From Agromyces mangrovi (lineage in GTDB: Bacteria; Actinomycetota; Actinomycetes; Actinomycetales; Microbacteriaceae), in NCBI RefSeq assembly GCF_030296695.1, contig NZ_AP027737.1, positions 3,038,001-3,102,000 on the forward strand: DNA of 64,000 bases, read 5' to 3'. The translations under genes were made by a program, and so were the position numbers. Below, piece by piece: positions 17,757 through 23,218 of this stretch. The notes beneath the pieces are model-generated. The model did no database searches and was not told the origin of the DNA. It saw only the letters and a program-made list of their open reading frames with translations. The first letter of the stretch is position 1. Each line of letters begins with the position of its first letter.

Positions 17757-18686
17757 TCAGGCGAGATCGCCCGGGCGGTGCACGAGCGACGCGGCCCCGA
17801 TGAGCGGGCCGTCCCCCGAGAGCGCCGACGGCACGATCTGCAGGCGCGTCACGAACCCGAAGCCGGTGCGCTCGGCCAGTGCGGCGCGTGCGTGGTCGAA
17901 GAACGCCGGGGCGACGTGCGAGAAGCCGCCGCCGATCGCGACGAGGTCGAGGTCGAGCAGGTTGGTGGCGGATGCCGCGGCGCGACCGACCGCGGTGCCG
18001 GCGCGACGCACGGCGGCGATGGCGACCTCGTCGCCCGCGGCGTGCGCGGCCGCCAGGTCTTCGCCCGTGCTGCCGGTGAACCCCTGCGACCTGGCCCAGG
18101 CGACGGTGCGGGGGCCGGATGCCACGGCCTCGACGCAGCCCGTGCCGCCGCACGGGCACGGGTCGTCGAAGCCGCCGACCTCGATGTGGCCGATGTGTCC
18201 GCCGTTGCCGGTGGGACTCGCGACCGCGCGTCCGTCGAGGATGAACCCGCCGCCGACGCCGGTCGAGACGACCATGCCCATCATCGCCCCGACGCCGCGG
18301 CCGGCGCCCACCCAGTGCTCGGCGAGCGTGATGCAGAGCCCGTCGATGCGGAGGGTGACCGGCATGCCGGGGAGCGTCCGCTCGACGAGGTCCACGAGCG
18401 GGAACCCGCGCCAGACGGGCAGGTTCAGGGGTGAGACGAGCCCGTCGACCAGGTCGACCGGGCCGGCCGAGCCGATGCCGACGCCGATGAGGTCGGCGTC
18501 GTCGGGCAGCGCCCCGGCGGTCGCGGTGACGACCGCCGCCACGTTCGCGGCGAGTTCGTCGGAGGTGGCGGCGGGGCCGGTCGGGCGCCGGTGCCGAGTG
18601 CCCGGCACGACCGTGCCGGCGTCGTCGACGAGGGCGCCCTCGACCTTGGTGCCGCCGATGTCGAGGGCGAGTGCGAGGGGGCGCAT
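17757..18686 (-). CDS. ROK family sugar kinase (glucokinase-like)
   Basis: A 309-residue ROK protein. Visible are the phosphate-binding LALDIGGTKVEGALVD at the N-terminus, the GNGGHIGHIEV motif whose His helps bind zinc, and the zinc motif CPCGGTGCVEA. It lacks a DNA-binding domain, so it is a kinase rather than a NagC-type repressor. Substrate is not certain; glucose or N-acetylhexosamine are the usual ones. The ATG at 18686 has a TAGGCT hexamer ending 6 nt upstream (leaderless). It is divergent from the SorC-family regulator gene. Confidence 0.88.
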   Translation of the reverse strand: MRPLALALDIGGTKVEGALVDDAGTVVPGTRHRRPTGPAATSDELAANVAAVVTATAGALPDDADLIGVGIGSAGPVDLVDGLVSPLNLPVWRGFPLVDLVERTLPGMPVTLRIDGLCITLAEHWVGAGRGVGAMMGMVVSTGVGGGFILDGRAVASPTGNGGHIGHIEVGGFDDPCPCGGTGCVEAVASGPRTVAWARSQGFTGSTGEDLAAAHAAGDEVAIAAVRRAGTAVGRAAASATNLLDLDLVAIGGGFSHVAPAFFDHARAALAERTGFGFVTRLQIVPSALSGDGPLIGAASLVHRPGDLA

Positions 18687-18744
18687 GCGGCAAGCCTACT
18701 GAGCCGGGGGCGGGGTGCGTCCGCGCTCGCGGAGGCATCCGATC

Positions 18745-18758
18745 TGCTCATCTGAGCA
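18745..18758. promoter_or_regulatory. inverted repeat, candidate operator of the deoC-operon regulator
   Basis: TGCTCA-TC-TGAGCA is a perfect 6-bp inverted repeat upstream of the regulator gene. A second repeat, CAACA-GG-TGTTG, follows at 18766-18777 and overlaps a weak -35 (TTGCTG, 18775-18780), which is spaced 17 nt from a TACCGT -10 at 18798-18803. SorC-family regulators commonly bind such sites in their own promoters; the assignment is inferred. Confidence 0.55.
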
Positions 18759-18826
18759 GGAGTGCCAACAGGTGTTGCTGGCGGCTCCGGGCAGGCGTAC
18801 CGTGGAACGCGTCGGAAGGGAGCGTG

Positions 18827-19771
18827 ATGGTCGAGACCGACGAACTCCTCTCGATCCGGGCTGCGGAGCTCTACTACGAGGAGAACAAGACCCAGGACGA
18901 GATCGGCCAGGCGCTGCACCTGACCCGCTGGAAGGTCGGCCGGCTGCTCTCCCAGGCGAAGGCCAAGGGGTACATCCGCATCGAGATCGTGCACCCGCGT
19001 GCTCGCCGGCTGCCGATCGAGCGCCGCCTGCGCGAGGAGCGCGGGCTCGACGACGCCATCGTCGTCTCGTCGGCCGGCGTCGACTCGGCCGACGAGGTGC
19101 AGGTGCGCACCGCGCAGGCCGCGGCCGACTACCTCACCGCGCTCCGGCCCGTGCCGCGCACCCTCGGCGTCAGCTGGGGTCGCACGCTGCACCTGGTCGC
19201 GGGGCACCTCCGCCAGGGCTGGGCCTCGGGCGTGGGCGTCGTGCAGATCAACGGCGGCGTGAGCCTCAACCGACGCGCGGGCACCGCCGCGGCGACCGCG
19301 GTCGCCATCGCGCAGAAGGGCGCCGGCCACGCCACGCTCCTGCCGAGTCCCGCCATCCTCGAGCGCATCGAGACCAAGCGCGCCATCGAGTCCGACCGCG
19401 TCGTCGCCGGCGTGATCGAGCAGGCCCGCTCGGCGAGCGCGTACCTGTTCAGCGCGGGGGCCGCCGACCACGGGTCGGTGCACGTCGAGAGCGGGTACCT
19501 CGCGGCATCCGACGTCGACGAGCTCGTGCGCAAGGGTGCCGTCGGCGATGTCGTCGGCCGCTACATCGACCCCGACGGCAACATCGTCGACCCGGCCCTC
19601 GACGCGCGCACCGTCGGCCTCACGCTCGACGAGCTGCGCGCCGCCGACCACGCCATCGCGGTCATCGCCGGCCGCAGCAAGCACGCGGTCGCCGACGCGG
19701 TCGTGCGCAGCGGCCTCTGCACCGTCCTCGTCACCGACGAGGAGACGGCACTCCACATCCTCGACGGCTGA
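18827..19771 (+). CDS. SorC/DeoR-type sugar-binding transcriptional regulator
   Basis: A 314-residue regulator with an N-terminal helix-turn-helix (LYYEENKTQDEIGQALHLTRWKVGRLLSQAKAKGYI). A large SorC sugar-binding domain follows, containing LGVSWGRTLHLVAGHL and ending HAIAVIAGRSKHAVADAVV. The B. subtilis DeoR protein belongs to this family and senses deoxyribose 5-phosphate. Adjacency to deoC supports the same role here. The start is the ATG at 18827 with GGAAGGGA upstream; a GTG one codon earlier is possible. Confidence 0.88.
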   Translation: MVETDELLSIRAAELYYEENKTQDEIGQALHLTRWKVGRLLSQAKAKGYIRIEIVHPRARRLPIERRLREERGLDDAIVVSSAGVDSADEVQVRTAQAAADYLTALRPVPRTLGVSWGRTLHLVAGHLRQGWASGVGVVQINGGVSLNRRAGTAAATAVAIAQKGAGHATLLPSPAILERIETKRAIESDRVVAGVIEQARSASAYLFSAGAADHGSVHVESGYLAASDVDELVRKGAVGDVVGRYIDPDGNIVDPALDARTVGLTLDELRAADHAIAVIAGRSKHAVADAVVRSGLCTVLVTDEETALHILDG

Positions 19772-19797
19772 GCCGTCCCCACGAAGGAAGCAACGCA

Positions 19798-20808
19798 ATG
19801 TCCGGTTCCCAGCTCGTGCACCCCGCACGTGAGCGCGCGGTCGCCATCCTCGGCGGCGACCCCGACGACGCCACGCTCCGCAGGTACCTCCACGGCATCC
19901 CCGGGGTCGACGCGGTCGGCCTCGAGCAGCGCGCCGCGGGCCTCGGCACGCGGTCGATCAAGACCTCGTCGAAGCAGTGGGCGCTCGACAAGATCATCGA
20001 GCTCATCGACCTCACCACGCTCGAGGGCGCCGACACGCCCGGCAAGGTGCGCTCGCTCGTCGCCAAGGCGCTCCGCCCCGACCCGGCCGACGCCACGACC
20101 CCGCGGGTCGCCGCCGTCTGCGTCTACGGCGACATGGTGCCGCACGCCGTCGAGGCGCTCGGCGCCGCGCACGGCGACCCCGACGAGGGCCTCGTCTCCG
20201 TCGCGGCCGTCGCCACCGCGTTCCCGAGCGGCCGGTCGTCGCTCGCGATCAAGCTGCAGGACACGGCCGACGCCGTCGCGGCCGGCGCCGACGAGATCGA
20301 CATGGTGATCGACCGCGGGGCGTTCCTCGCCGGCCGGTACGGCCAGGTGTTCGACGAGATCGCGCAGGTCAAGGAGGCGTGCGCCAGGCCCGACGGCACC
20401 TCCGCGTCGCTCAAGGTGATCCTCGAGACCGGCGAGCTCAACACCTACGACAACGTGCGCCGCGCCTCGTGGCTCGCGATCCTCGCGGGCGGCGACTTCA
20501 TCAAGACGTCCACCGGCAAGGTGCAGCCGGCCGCGACCCTGCCTGTGACGCTGCTCATGCTCGAGGTCGTGCGCGACTGGCACCGCCTCACCGGCCAGCG
20601 CATCGGCGTGAAGCCCGCCGGCGGCATCCGCTCGTCGAAGGACGCGATCAAGTACCTCGTGACGGTCGCCGAGACCGTGGGGGAGGAGTGGCTGCAGCCG
20701 CACCTGTTCCGCTACGGCGCCTCCAGCCTGCTGAACGACGTGCTCATGCAGCGACGCAAGATGACCAGCGGGCACTACTCCGGACCCGACTACCTGACGA
20801 TCGACTGA
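19798..20808 (+). CDS. deoC: deoxyribose-phosphate aldolase
   Basis: A 336-residue DERA of the long class. It cleaves 2-deoxyribose 5-phosphate to glyceraldehyde 3-phosphate and acetaldehyde. The Schiff-base lysine lies in GGDFIKTSTGKVQPAA, and the second catalytic lysine in IGVKPAGGIRSSKDAI. The N-terminus is about 80 residues longer than in the short E. coli type. It follows the regulator by 26 nt and precedes two aldehyde dehydrogenase genes, which suggests that the acetaldehyde product is oxidised in the same pathway. Confidence 0.94.
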   Translation: MSGSQLVHPARERAVAILGGDPDDATLRRYLHGIPGVDAVGLEQRAAGLGTRSIKTSSKQWALDKIIELIDLTTLEGADTPGKVRSLVAKALRPDPADATTPRVAAVCVYGDMVPHAVEALGAAHGDPDEGLVSVAAVATAFPSGRSSLAIKLQDTADAVAAGADEIDMVIDRGAFLAGRYGQVFDEIAQVKEACARPDGTSASLKVILETGELNTYDNVRRASWLAILAGGDFIKTSTGKVQPAATLPVTLLMLEVVRDWHRLTGQRIGVKPAGGIRSSKDAIKYLVTVAETVGEEWLQPHLFRYGASSLLNDVLMQRRKMTSGHYSGPDYLTID

Positions 20809-20819
20809 GGACACCGAAC

Positions 20820-22361
20820 ATGAGCTTCCTCGAGTACGCGCCGGCCCCCGAGTCGCGCGCCATCCTCAACCTCCGCGACGAGTACGGCCTGTTCATCGAC
20901 GGCGAGTTCGTCGAGGGGCACGGCACCCCCTTCCAGACCATCTCGCCGGCGTCCGAGCAGCGCATCGCGATGATCTCGAGCGCCGACGCGACCGACGTCG
21001 ACGCGGCCGTCGCGGCCGCCCGGCGCGCCTACCAGCGCACCTGGTCGCGCATGTCGGGCCGCGACCGGGGCAAGTACCTGTTCCGCATCGCGCGGCTGCT
21101 GCAGGAGCGGGCCCGCGAGCTCGCCGTCGCCGAGAGCCTCGACAACGGCAAGCCGATCAAGGAGAGCCGCGACGTCGACGTGCCGCTCGTCGCCGCGTGG
21201 TTCTTCTACTACGCCGGCTGGGCCGACAAGCTCGACCACGCCGGCCTCGGCGCCGACCCCCGCTCGCTCGGGGTCGCCGCGCAGGTGATCCCGTGGAACT
21301 TCCCGCTGCTCATGCTCGCGTGGAAGATCGCGCCGGCGCTCGCCGCGGGCAACACGGTCGTGCTGAAGCCCGCCGAGACGACGCCGCTCACCGCGCTGCT
21401 GTTCGCCGAGATCGTGCAGCAGGCCGACCTTCCGCCGGGCGTCGTGAACATCATCACGGGCGCGGGCGACACCGGCGCGGCCCTCGTCGGGCACGGCGAC
21501 GTCGACAAGGTCGCGTTCACCGGCTCGACCGCCGTGGGCCGCGCGATCGCGAAGACCGTGGCGGGCACCGACACGAAGCTCACGCTCGAGCTCGGCGGCA
21601 AGGCCGCGAACATCGTCTTCGACGACGCGCCCATCGACCAGGCGATCGAGGGCATCGTCAACGGCATCTTCTTCAACCAGGGCCACGTGTGCTGCGCGGG
21701 CAGCCGGCTGCTCGTGCAGGAGAACGTGCACGACGAGGTCGTCGACCGCCTCAAGGCGCGGCTGTCGACGCTGCGCCTCGGCGACCCGCTCGACAAGAAC
21801 ACCGACATCGGCGCGATCAACTCGCGCGAGCAGCTCGAGCGCATCCGCGAGCTGAGCGACGCGGGCGTCGACGAGGGCGCCGAGCGCTGGACGGCCGAGT
21901 GCGAGATCCCCGACGACGGGTTCTGGTACGCGCCGACCATCTTCACGAACGTGTCGACGAGCCACCGCATCGCGCGCGAGGAGATCTTCGGGCCGGTGCT
22001 GTCGGTGCTCTCGTTCCGCACCCCGGCCGAGGCCGTCGCGAAGGCGAACAACACGCCGTACGGGCTCTCCGCGGGCATCTGGACCGACAAGGGCAGCCGC
22101 ATCCTCGCGGTCGCCGACCGGCTGCGCGCCGGCGTGATCTGGGCGAACACGTTCAACCGGTTCGACCCGTCGAGCCCGTTCGGCGGCTACAAGGAGTCGG
22201 GCTACGGTCGCGAGGGCGGCCGGCACGGCCTGGCCGCGTACCTCGCACCCGCCACCGCCGCCGCACGGAAGCAGGTCGCCGCCTCCGAGACCGCCGCCGT
22301 CGAGGCGCCGAAGAAGTCCGCGCGAACGCCCAAGCGCCAGGCGAAGGGAACGAAGCGATGA
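20820..22361 (+). CDS. aldehyde dehydrogenase, catalytic subunit (ALDH16-like N-terminal half)
   Basis: A 513-residue NAD(P)-dependent aldehyde dehydrogenase with all catalytic marks: [23 protein letters not shown] for cofactor and oxyanion, LELGGKAANIVF for the general-base Glu, and the nucleophile Cys in GHVCCAGSR. The last 35 residues are a Lys/Ala-rich tail. The ATG is 11 nt after deoC. It overlaps the next gene as ATGA. That gene is a catalytically dead half ALDH, so the pair may form one complex like the two-domain ALDH16. Acetaldehyde from DeoC is the expected substrate. Confidence 0.9.
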   Translation: MSFLEYAPAPESRAILNLRDEYGLFIDGEFVEGHGTPFQTISPASEQRIAMISSADATDVDAAVAAARRAYQRTWSRMSGRDRGKYLFRIARLLQERARELAVAESLDNGKPIKESRDVDVPLVAAWFFYYAGWADKLDHAGLGADPRSLGVAAQVIPWNFPLLMLAWKIAPALAAGNTVVLKPAETTPLTALLFAEIVQQADLPPGVVNIITGAGDTGAALVGHGDVDKVAFTGSTAVGRAIAKTVAGTDTKLTLELGGKAANIVFDDAPIDQAIEGIVNGIFFNQGHVCCAGSRLLVQENVHDEVVDRLKARLSTLRLGDPLDKNTDIGAINSREQLERIRELSDAGVDEGAERWTAECEIPDDGFWYAPTIFTNVSTSHRIAREEIFGPVLSVLSFRTPAEAVAKANNTPYGLSAGIWTDKGSRILAVADRLRAGVIWANTFNRFDPSSPFGGYKESGYGREGGRHGLAAYLAPATAAARKQVAASETAAVEAPKKSARTPKRQAKGTKR

Positions 22362-23218
22362 GCCGGCTGGCCGTGCCGAAGACGTACAAGCTCGCGATCG
22401 GCGGCAAGTTCCCGCGCAGCGAGTCGGGGCGCACCTACGAGGTGCGCACCGCCGACGGGTCGTTCCTCGCCAACGCCGCGAAGGCCTCGCGCAAGGACGC
22501 CCGCGACGCCGTCGTCGCCGCGCGCGCCGCGGTGAAGGACTGGTCGGGCGCCACCGCGTACAACCGCGGCCAGGTGCTCTACCGCATCGCCGAGCTGCTC
22601 GAGGGACGCCGCGCGCAGTTCGCCGACGAGATCGTCGCGCTCGAGGGCGTCACGCGCGCCGCGGCGACCGCGCAGGTCGACGAGGCCATCGACCGCTGGG
22701 TCTGGTACGCCGGCTGGGCCGACAAGTTCGCCCAGGTCGCCGGCAACGCGAACCCGGTCGCGGGCCCGTTCTTCAACATCTCGGTGCCCGAGCCCACGGG
22801 CGTCGTGGCGATCATCGCCCCGCAGGACTCGTCGCTCGTCGGCCTCGTCTCGTCGGTCGCGCCCGCGCTGGTCGCGGGCAACGCGGTCGTCGTGGTCGCG
22901 AGCGAGCGGTACCCGCTGCCGGCGATCAGCCTCGCCGAGGTGCTCGCCACGAGCGACGTGCCGGGCGGCGTGGTGAACACGCTCACGGGGTCGCCCGCCG
23001 AGATCGCCCCGTGGCTCGCGAGCCACGAGGACGTCAACGCGCTCGACCTCGTCGGTGCGGGTGCGCTCGACTGGGTCGACCTCGAGATCGCGGCGGCCGA
23101 CACGCTGAAGCGCGTGCTGCGTCCCGAGCAGGGGGCGGATGCCGCGGCGCCGTCGCTCGATCGCATCACGGCGTTCACCGAGACGAAGACGGTCTGGCAC
23201 ACCAAGAGCATGATCTGA
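22358..23218 (+). CDS. truncated aldehyde dehydrogenase-like subunit lacking catalytic residues
   Basis: A 286-residue protein homologous to the N-terminal, NAD-binding portion of aldehyde dehydrogenases (AIGGKFPRSESGRTYEV, ALEGVTRAAATAQVDEAIDRWVWYAGWADKF, GVVAIIAPQDSSLVGLVSSVAPALVAGN). The lysine normally seen in VLKPAE is replaced (VVVVASERYP). The catalytic Glu/Cys domain is missing, and the protein jumps to a terminal WHTKSMI segment. The reading frame is clean and translationally coupled to the complete ALDH, so this is a designed partner, not decay. The two lengths sum to about 800 residues, matching ALDH16, whose second domain is also a non-catalytic ALDH. Confidence 0.85.
   Translation: MSRLAVPKTYKLAIGGKFPRSESGRTYEVRTADGSFLANAAKASRKDARDAVVAARAAVKDWSGATAYNRGQVLYRIAELLEGRRAQFADEIVALEGVTRAAATAQVDEAIDRWVWYAGWADKFAQVAGNANPVAGPFFNISVPEPTGVVAIIAPQDSSLVGLVSSVAPALVAGNAVVVVASERYPLPAISLAEVLATSDVPGGVVNTLTGSPAEIAPWLASHEDVNALDLVGAGALDWVDLEIAAADTLKRVLRPEQGADAAAPSLDRITAFTETKTVWHTKSMI

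Follow-up and report, generated by a model that had tools for sequence, protein, structure and literature searches.

We analyzed a 64,000-nucleotide (nt) stretch of the Agromyces mangrovi genome (contig NZ_AP027737.1, positions 3,038,001 to 3,102,000, further called the window) and found that an operon at 18827-23218 encodes homologs of the two domains of the aldehyde dehydrogenase (ALDH) ALDH16 as two separate polypeptides. The operon consists of genes for a SorC-type DeoR regulator, deoxyribose-5-phosphate aldolase (deoC), a complete ALDH and an ALDH-like protein, and their reading frames were confirmed. This two-gene arrangement represents a novel version of ALDH16. We consider it probable that the pair is a two-subunit (trans) bacterial ALDH16 which oxidizes DeoC-derived acetaldehyde during DNA scavenging. 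An earlier, sequence-only reading of this DNA had placed a complete 513-residue ALDH and a coupled 286-residue ALDH-like protein after deoC. Both open reading frames (ORFs) were found as described, in different frames and with a 4-nt overlap (ATGA). That reading gave the operon its right interval, while the regulator at the start of the interval was missing from its text.

The larger protein (513 aa, 20820-22361, plus strand; PF00171 at residues 30-476) is a homolog of ALDH16 domain 1 and the predicted catalytic subunit. It retains both the catalytic glutamate (ELGGK, E257) and the catalytic cysteine (C291). Its best match in the PDB was ALDH16 domain 1 (6mvr, residues 11-491, E 2e-162; next match 2e-128), and it shared 58% identity with the initial portion of Loktanella ALDH16 over 251 aligned residues of a partial stretch. 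All NCBIfam models among the matches listed (25 of 42) were below their cut-offs, therefore the sequence does not name the substrate. An alanine- and lysine-rich tail of approximately 35 residues closes the protein (22254-22358), at the place where one-chain relatives have a variable linker.

The smaller protein (286 aa, 22358-23218, plus strand) is a homolog of ALDH16 domain 2 and the predicted non-catalytic subunit; it matches PF00171 only at profile positions 8-216 of 461. Neither the catalytic glutamate motif nor the catalytic cysteine motif was present in its sequence, as had been claimed. The best PDB match was ALDH16 domain 2 (6mvu/6mvr, residues 500-762, E 4e-54), with the next family at 1e-29, and the identity to Loktanella domain 2 was 42% over 260 positions. 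In the structure model (predicted local distance difference test, pLDDT, 90.1) the protein folds as a cofactor-type domain with a C-terminal strand and without the catalytic domain. Foldseek ranked ALDH16 first for this model, with a template modeling (TM) score of 0.90 to 6mvr versus 0.76-0.80 among the other ALDHs listed. The C-terminal strand aligned with the very end of the ordinary ALDH chain (VIA-align ranges), a segment which these enzymes use for oligomerization. The earlier statement that the protein keeps the cofactor-domain half holds for the fold; the lysine that binds nicotinamide adenine dinucleotide (NAD) and one of the two NAD glycines are lost.

Further, we placed both proteins in a tree of the cofactor-domain region (89 rows, with six ALDH paralogs of the same genome as the outgroup). 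The tree came from a quick search without bootstrap and has long branches, therefore we relied only on its two deep groups. All 55 small/domain-2 rows formed one clade (Shimodaira-Hasegawa-like approximate likelihood ratio test, SH-aLRT, 100) and 28 large/domain-1 rows formed another (96). The NAD lysine was lost in 55 of the 55 small/domain-2 rows, including the small protein itself. Thus the PDB matches and the tree bear out an ALDH16-like pair, each protein going with its respective domain. The small subunit was nearest to ALDH16 domain 2 by sequence (with a wide margin), tree and Foldseek, and VIA-align gave a tie; a best similarity to some other family, which would have refuted the earlier reading, was not observed. 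Fused and split rows were mixed in the tree, the starred branches forcing at least five changes, and some of the fused rows may be artefacts. To describe the pair as an ALDH16 cut in two presupposes that a fused ancestor underwent fission; the tree would fit fusion as well as fission.

Both genes are under selection. The median ratio of nonsynonymous to synonymous substitution rates (dN/dS) was 0.24 for the large gene and 0.24 for the small gene (13 Agromyces comparisons), and the small gene was present in 25 of the 25 Agromyces genomes examined, the window's own included. The small gene is not an ORF that arose by chance, and it is not decaying into a pseudogene. The pair was split in 80 of 80 named actinobacterial loci (gaps -3 to 18 nt); a 4-nt overlap occurred in 60 of them (31 ATGA, 29 GTGA), and the other 20 had gaps of 0-18 nt. 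It was also split in 68 of 70 phylum-wide actinobacterial loci (2 not judged; the gap calls of L151, L153 and L173 are shaky) and in 44 of 45 further actinobacterial loci (1 not judged; genomes partly shared with the other sets). On plasmid record L123 the frames of deoC and of ALDH16 are both interrupted, and such a copy would fit a split that arose by assembly or annotation error or by gene decay. Given the split in all three sets and the dN/dS values, we rejected this explanation as scarcely credible.

One-chain forms were found in Proteobacteria. We examined twelve plasmid records (L118-L121, L123, L194-L200), a non-random pick from 155 and 587 matching records. One uninterrupted ORF ran over both domains in 10 of the 12; L120 was cut by the start of the record, and L123 is the interrupted copy. 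The one-chain protein of Caballeronia was covered over 796 residues in one stretch. A Nonomuraea record (L122) carried the split pair. Among the database matches listed (120 of 296), 51 fused actinobacterial-looking proteins passed the full-length rule, some of them with long linkers. Domain 2 of one such protein (P0025), searched in 396 and 394 genomes, gave best identities of only 67% and 69%, so that the fused actinobacterial-looking proteins are unconfirmed at the DNA level. The model of the fused database protein P0024 had a mean pLDDT of 80.3 and was poor in the linker and in some stretches of domain 1. It aligned with 6mvs over 780 columns (TM 0.83/0.87, root-mean-square deviation 6.7); its TM advantage over single ALDHs is in part a trivial effect of length, as one ALDH alone cannot span the whole query. 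Two fused proteins were set aside as evidence. P0001 shares 84% identity with the small protein, but the alignment of its domain 1 stops at residue 458 and its link looks like a frameshift; this protein nevertheless stands as a row in the tree. P0003 is named as an insect protein and is probably contamination.

The neighborhood of deoC links both forms to the same pathway. In the window deoC itself (336 aa, 19798-20808, plus strand) exceeded the cut-off of TIGR00126 (160 bits, cut-off 117). A deoC gene preceded the split pair in 78 of the 80 named loci, the two exceptions beginning at contig ends, and in 64 of 70 phylum-wide actinobacterial genomes, the six exceptions being cut by contig ends; in a few of the 64 it was non-adjacent, up to about 2.5 kb from the pair. 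Of 296 genomes, 71 contain a close deoC (E up to 1e-79), accompanied by the small gene in 68; a further 20 contain a distant deoC, and the small gene was found in none of these. The three genomes with a close deoC and no small gene (G073, G127, G135) have deoC within approximately 1.2 kb of a contig end on the side of the pair, and the three with the small gene and no deoC match (G211, G267, G287) have the contig cut upstream of the pair. In Proteobacteria deoC lay directly upstream of ALDH16 in 11 of 11 loci with upstream sequence, frame-interrupted L123 included. The Phyllobacterium zundukense locus L195 has the order regulator-deoC-ALDH16, as in the window, and its regulator is 43% identical to that of the window. 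The function which had been guessed from context is thus supported by deoC linkage of the split and one-chain forms in two phyla, and the wider genomic context strengthens it; acetaldehyde would be the inferred substrate.

We propose the following mechanism. A DeoR-controlled pathway of DNA and deoxynucleoside use would start with a secreted DNase and continue through nucleoside uptake, thymidine phosphorylase and related steps to deoxyribose-5-phosphate. DeoC would split this compound into glyceraldehyde-3-phosphate and acetaldehyde, and the ALDH16 pair would convert acetaldehyde to acetate. The 513-aa protein would act as an NAD-dependent aldehyde dehydrogenase, and the 286-aa protein as a catalytically dead partner packing on it, like domain 2 on domain 1, so that the two may form a physical complex. 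By analogy, the dead subunit most likely stands in for partner subunits of the ordinary ALDH tetramer, as two subunits of one-chain ALDH16 mimic such a tetramer according to the available part of PMC8160307. The kinase/aldolase route to acetaldehyde and glyceraldehyde-3-phosphate is established (PMC6365646); the text of that paper, figures aside, contains no word beginning with "aldehyde", and no name for the enzyme that follows DeoC was seen in it.

Several observations weigh against this interpretation. The genome has 12 other ALDH-like places, some of which could oxidize acetaldehyde. Of the 55 small/domain-2 rows, 53 retained the first NAD glycine and 32 the Glu195 equivalent; the small protein likely no longer binds cofactor, judging from its residues, and because of these two retained positions the loss is not certain. 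The VIA-align Z of the small model was 35.5 to ALDH16 domain 2 and up to 36.4 to ordinary ALDHs, and this fold comparison, which ties with many ALDHs, was dropped as ALDH16-specific evidence. None of the actinobacterial DNA loci was fused (0/80; 0/70, 2 not judged; 0/45, 1 not judged), therefore the evidence for equating the cis and trans forms comes from proteobacterial DNA and from proteins in the database.

The small protein could instead act independently as a pseudoenzyme, such as one that regulates or chaperones DeoC or metabolism, and form no stable complex with the large ALDH. In favor of this, it is made as a polypeptide of its own, and in a few genomes a spacer separates the genes of the pair (236 nt in L189; 1404 nt, as it appears, in L151). 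We regard this as quite improbable: in Proteobacteria its homolog and an ALDH of the same kind form a single chain, the two genes overlap by 4 nt in most of the named loci, and the small model keeps the C-terminal strand that matches the ordinary ALDH C-terminus with its role in oligomerization. Another possibility is that the pair belongs to the pathway and acts on a different aldehyde, namely deoxyribose itself, glyceraldehyde or a broad set. ALDHs are often broad in substrate, and the NCBIfam models, as given above, leave the substrate of the large ALDH unnamed. Other bacteria are known to oxidize deoxyribose, as described in the accessible portion of PMC6365646. Against this stands the linkage in two phyla to deoC, whose product is acetaldehyde, and in five annotated loci no gene annotated for deoxyribonate use adjoined ALDH16; we hold the different-substrate explanation to be unlikely, with somewhat more in its favor than the independent pseudoenzyme. 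A more far-reaching version of the preferred acetaldehyde reading is that bacterial ALDH16 overall is a dedicated acetaldehyde dehydrogenase of the DeoC pathway, with the dead domain as an obligate structural subunit in cis or in trans, and that the complex docks DeoC and receives acetaldehyde directly. This extension is doubtful. If it held, the eukaryotic ALDH16A1 pseudoenzyme would derive from a nucleoside-catabolic enzyme.

We observed an operator-like palindrome, CTGCTCATCTGAGCAG (18744-18759), with the core TGCTCANNTGAGCA at 18745-18758, 68 nt before the regulator gene. The regulator (314 aa, 18827-19771, plus strand) is a SorC-family DeoR-type repressor with the SorC sugar-binding domain (PF04198, 180 bits); it did not reach the cut-off of the NCBIfam DeoR equivalog (NF053881, 227 bits versus 420). 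Among 62 related loci that have a regulator and a sufficiently long upstream region, the palindrome (at least 10 of 12 positions) preceded the regulator in 60, perfectly in 56, compared with 1 of 305 control segments. The exact palindrome occurred at three sites of the genome (the window, C1:1521183 and C1:2797657; L204, L205), and the reversed control pattern at none. The second site precedes genes for a BMP/PnrA-type lipoprotein (PF02608) and for an ATP-binding cassette (ABC) ATPase and permeases, followed by cytidine deaminase, thymidine phosphorylase (NF004490, 608 bits, cut-off 269) and adenosine deaminase. The NCBIfam models for this transporter were below cut-off, and nucleosides are its presumed cargo. 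The cytidine deaminase ORF (L206:179-640) agrees with its best models in their first half alone (residues 8-76) and diverges after that, possibly through a frame break or an assembly error at a G run. The third site precedes an ExeM/NucH-family extracellular endonuclease (NF033681, 583 bits, cut-off 300).

In 14 other Agromyces genomes we found 52 palindrome sites. Fourteen preceded the regulator (14/14 genomes) and fourteen the BMP gene (14/14); eight adjoined NucH-like genes (four with the start 140-144 nt away, four as partial matches), and 16 lay elsewhere, therefore the palindrome is not limited to the DNA-use pathway in every genome. By eye, and from N-termini only, other exact palindromes of the genus were seen near ORFs whose beginnings resemble PurF (L251, L266, L270) or a drug/metabolite transporter (DMT)-type permease (L226, L230, L232, L236, L244, L247, L250). 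The palindrome likely marks a three-operon DNA-scavenging regulon made of the secreted ExeM/NucH DNase, nucleoside uptake and phosphorolysis, and deoR-deoC-ALDH16. We infer that DeoR binds it, with deoxyribose-5-phosphate as the inducer.

The palindrome of the window lies between deoR and a divergent gene of a ROK-family sugar kinase (17757-18686, minus strand). Every NCBIfam match of this kinase was under cut-off, and a homolog stood at the same place in 33 of the 60 loci whose upstream region was long enough. Scans for promoters and terminators found 0 (shuffle means 0.2 and 0.8), and a scan for tandem repeats found none. The host actinobacterial genome is 3.6 Mb, and among named relatives of the small protein those from Agromyces stand nearest.

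Crystal structures of bacterial ALDH16 exist, but we found no clear role for it in the literature seen. No paper linking ALDH16 with deoC/DERA was found among the 15 listed of 433 matching papers in open-licence full-text literature; the one listed paper with both terms is PMC10879545, where in the available part human ALDH16A1 and DERA co-occur only as rows of a protein table. The linkage to deoC in two phyla, in one-chain and two-gene form, gives bacterial ALDH16 a specific and testable function. The split form makes the role of the dead domain separable simply by omitting one gene, and a compact DNA-eating regulon is outlined in a group of soil actinobacteria.

Human ALDH16A1 has the two-domain ALDH16 layout, as in the window pair. 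It differs in being without the catalytic cysteine and is listed with gout in the available part of PMC8160307; we set it beside the pair by description only. The regulation resembles that of deoR/dra-nupC-pdp in B. subtilis, where, according to the part of PMC11229326 at hand, a SorC-type DeoR governs deoxynucleoside catabolism, repressing dra-nupC-pdp and binding deoxyribose-5-phosphate. No ALDH is named there in that part, and the half-operator is TTGAACA...TTCAA, compared with TGCTCANNTGAGCA here. In plasmid operons of Rhizobiaceae, Phyllobacterium, Paracoccus and Caballeronia the ALDH16 gene directly follows deoC, as here; these operons differ in their one-chain ALDH16 of approximately 797 aa and, in four annotated loci, in genes for ribokinase and a sugar ABC transporter. 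The closest comparison is the ALDH16 of the 6mvr series (6mvr, 6mvs, 6mvt, 6mvu), whose source organism is given as Loktanella in the available part of PMC8160307, and which likewise combines a complete ALDH with a truncated, dead cofactor-type domain. There the two are one 767-residue chain, whereas here they are two polypeptides. Since the domains lie in two ORFs, the window pair is a split variant and not a canonical ALDH16.

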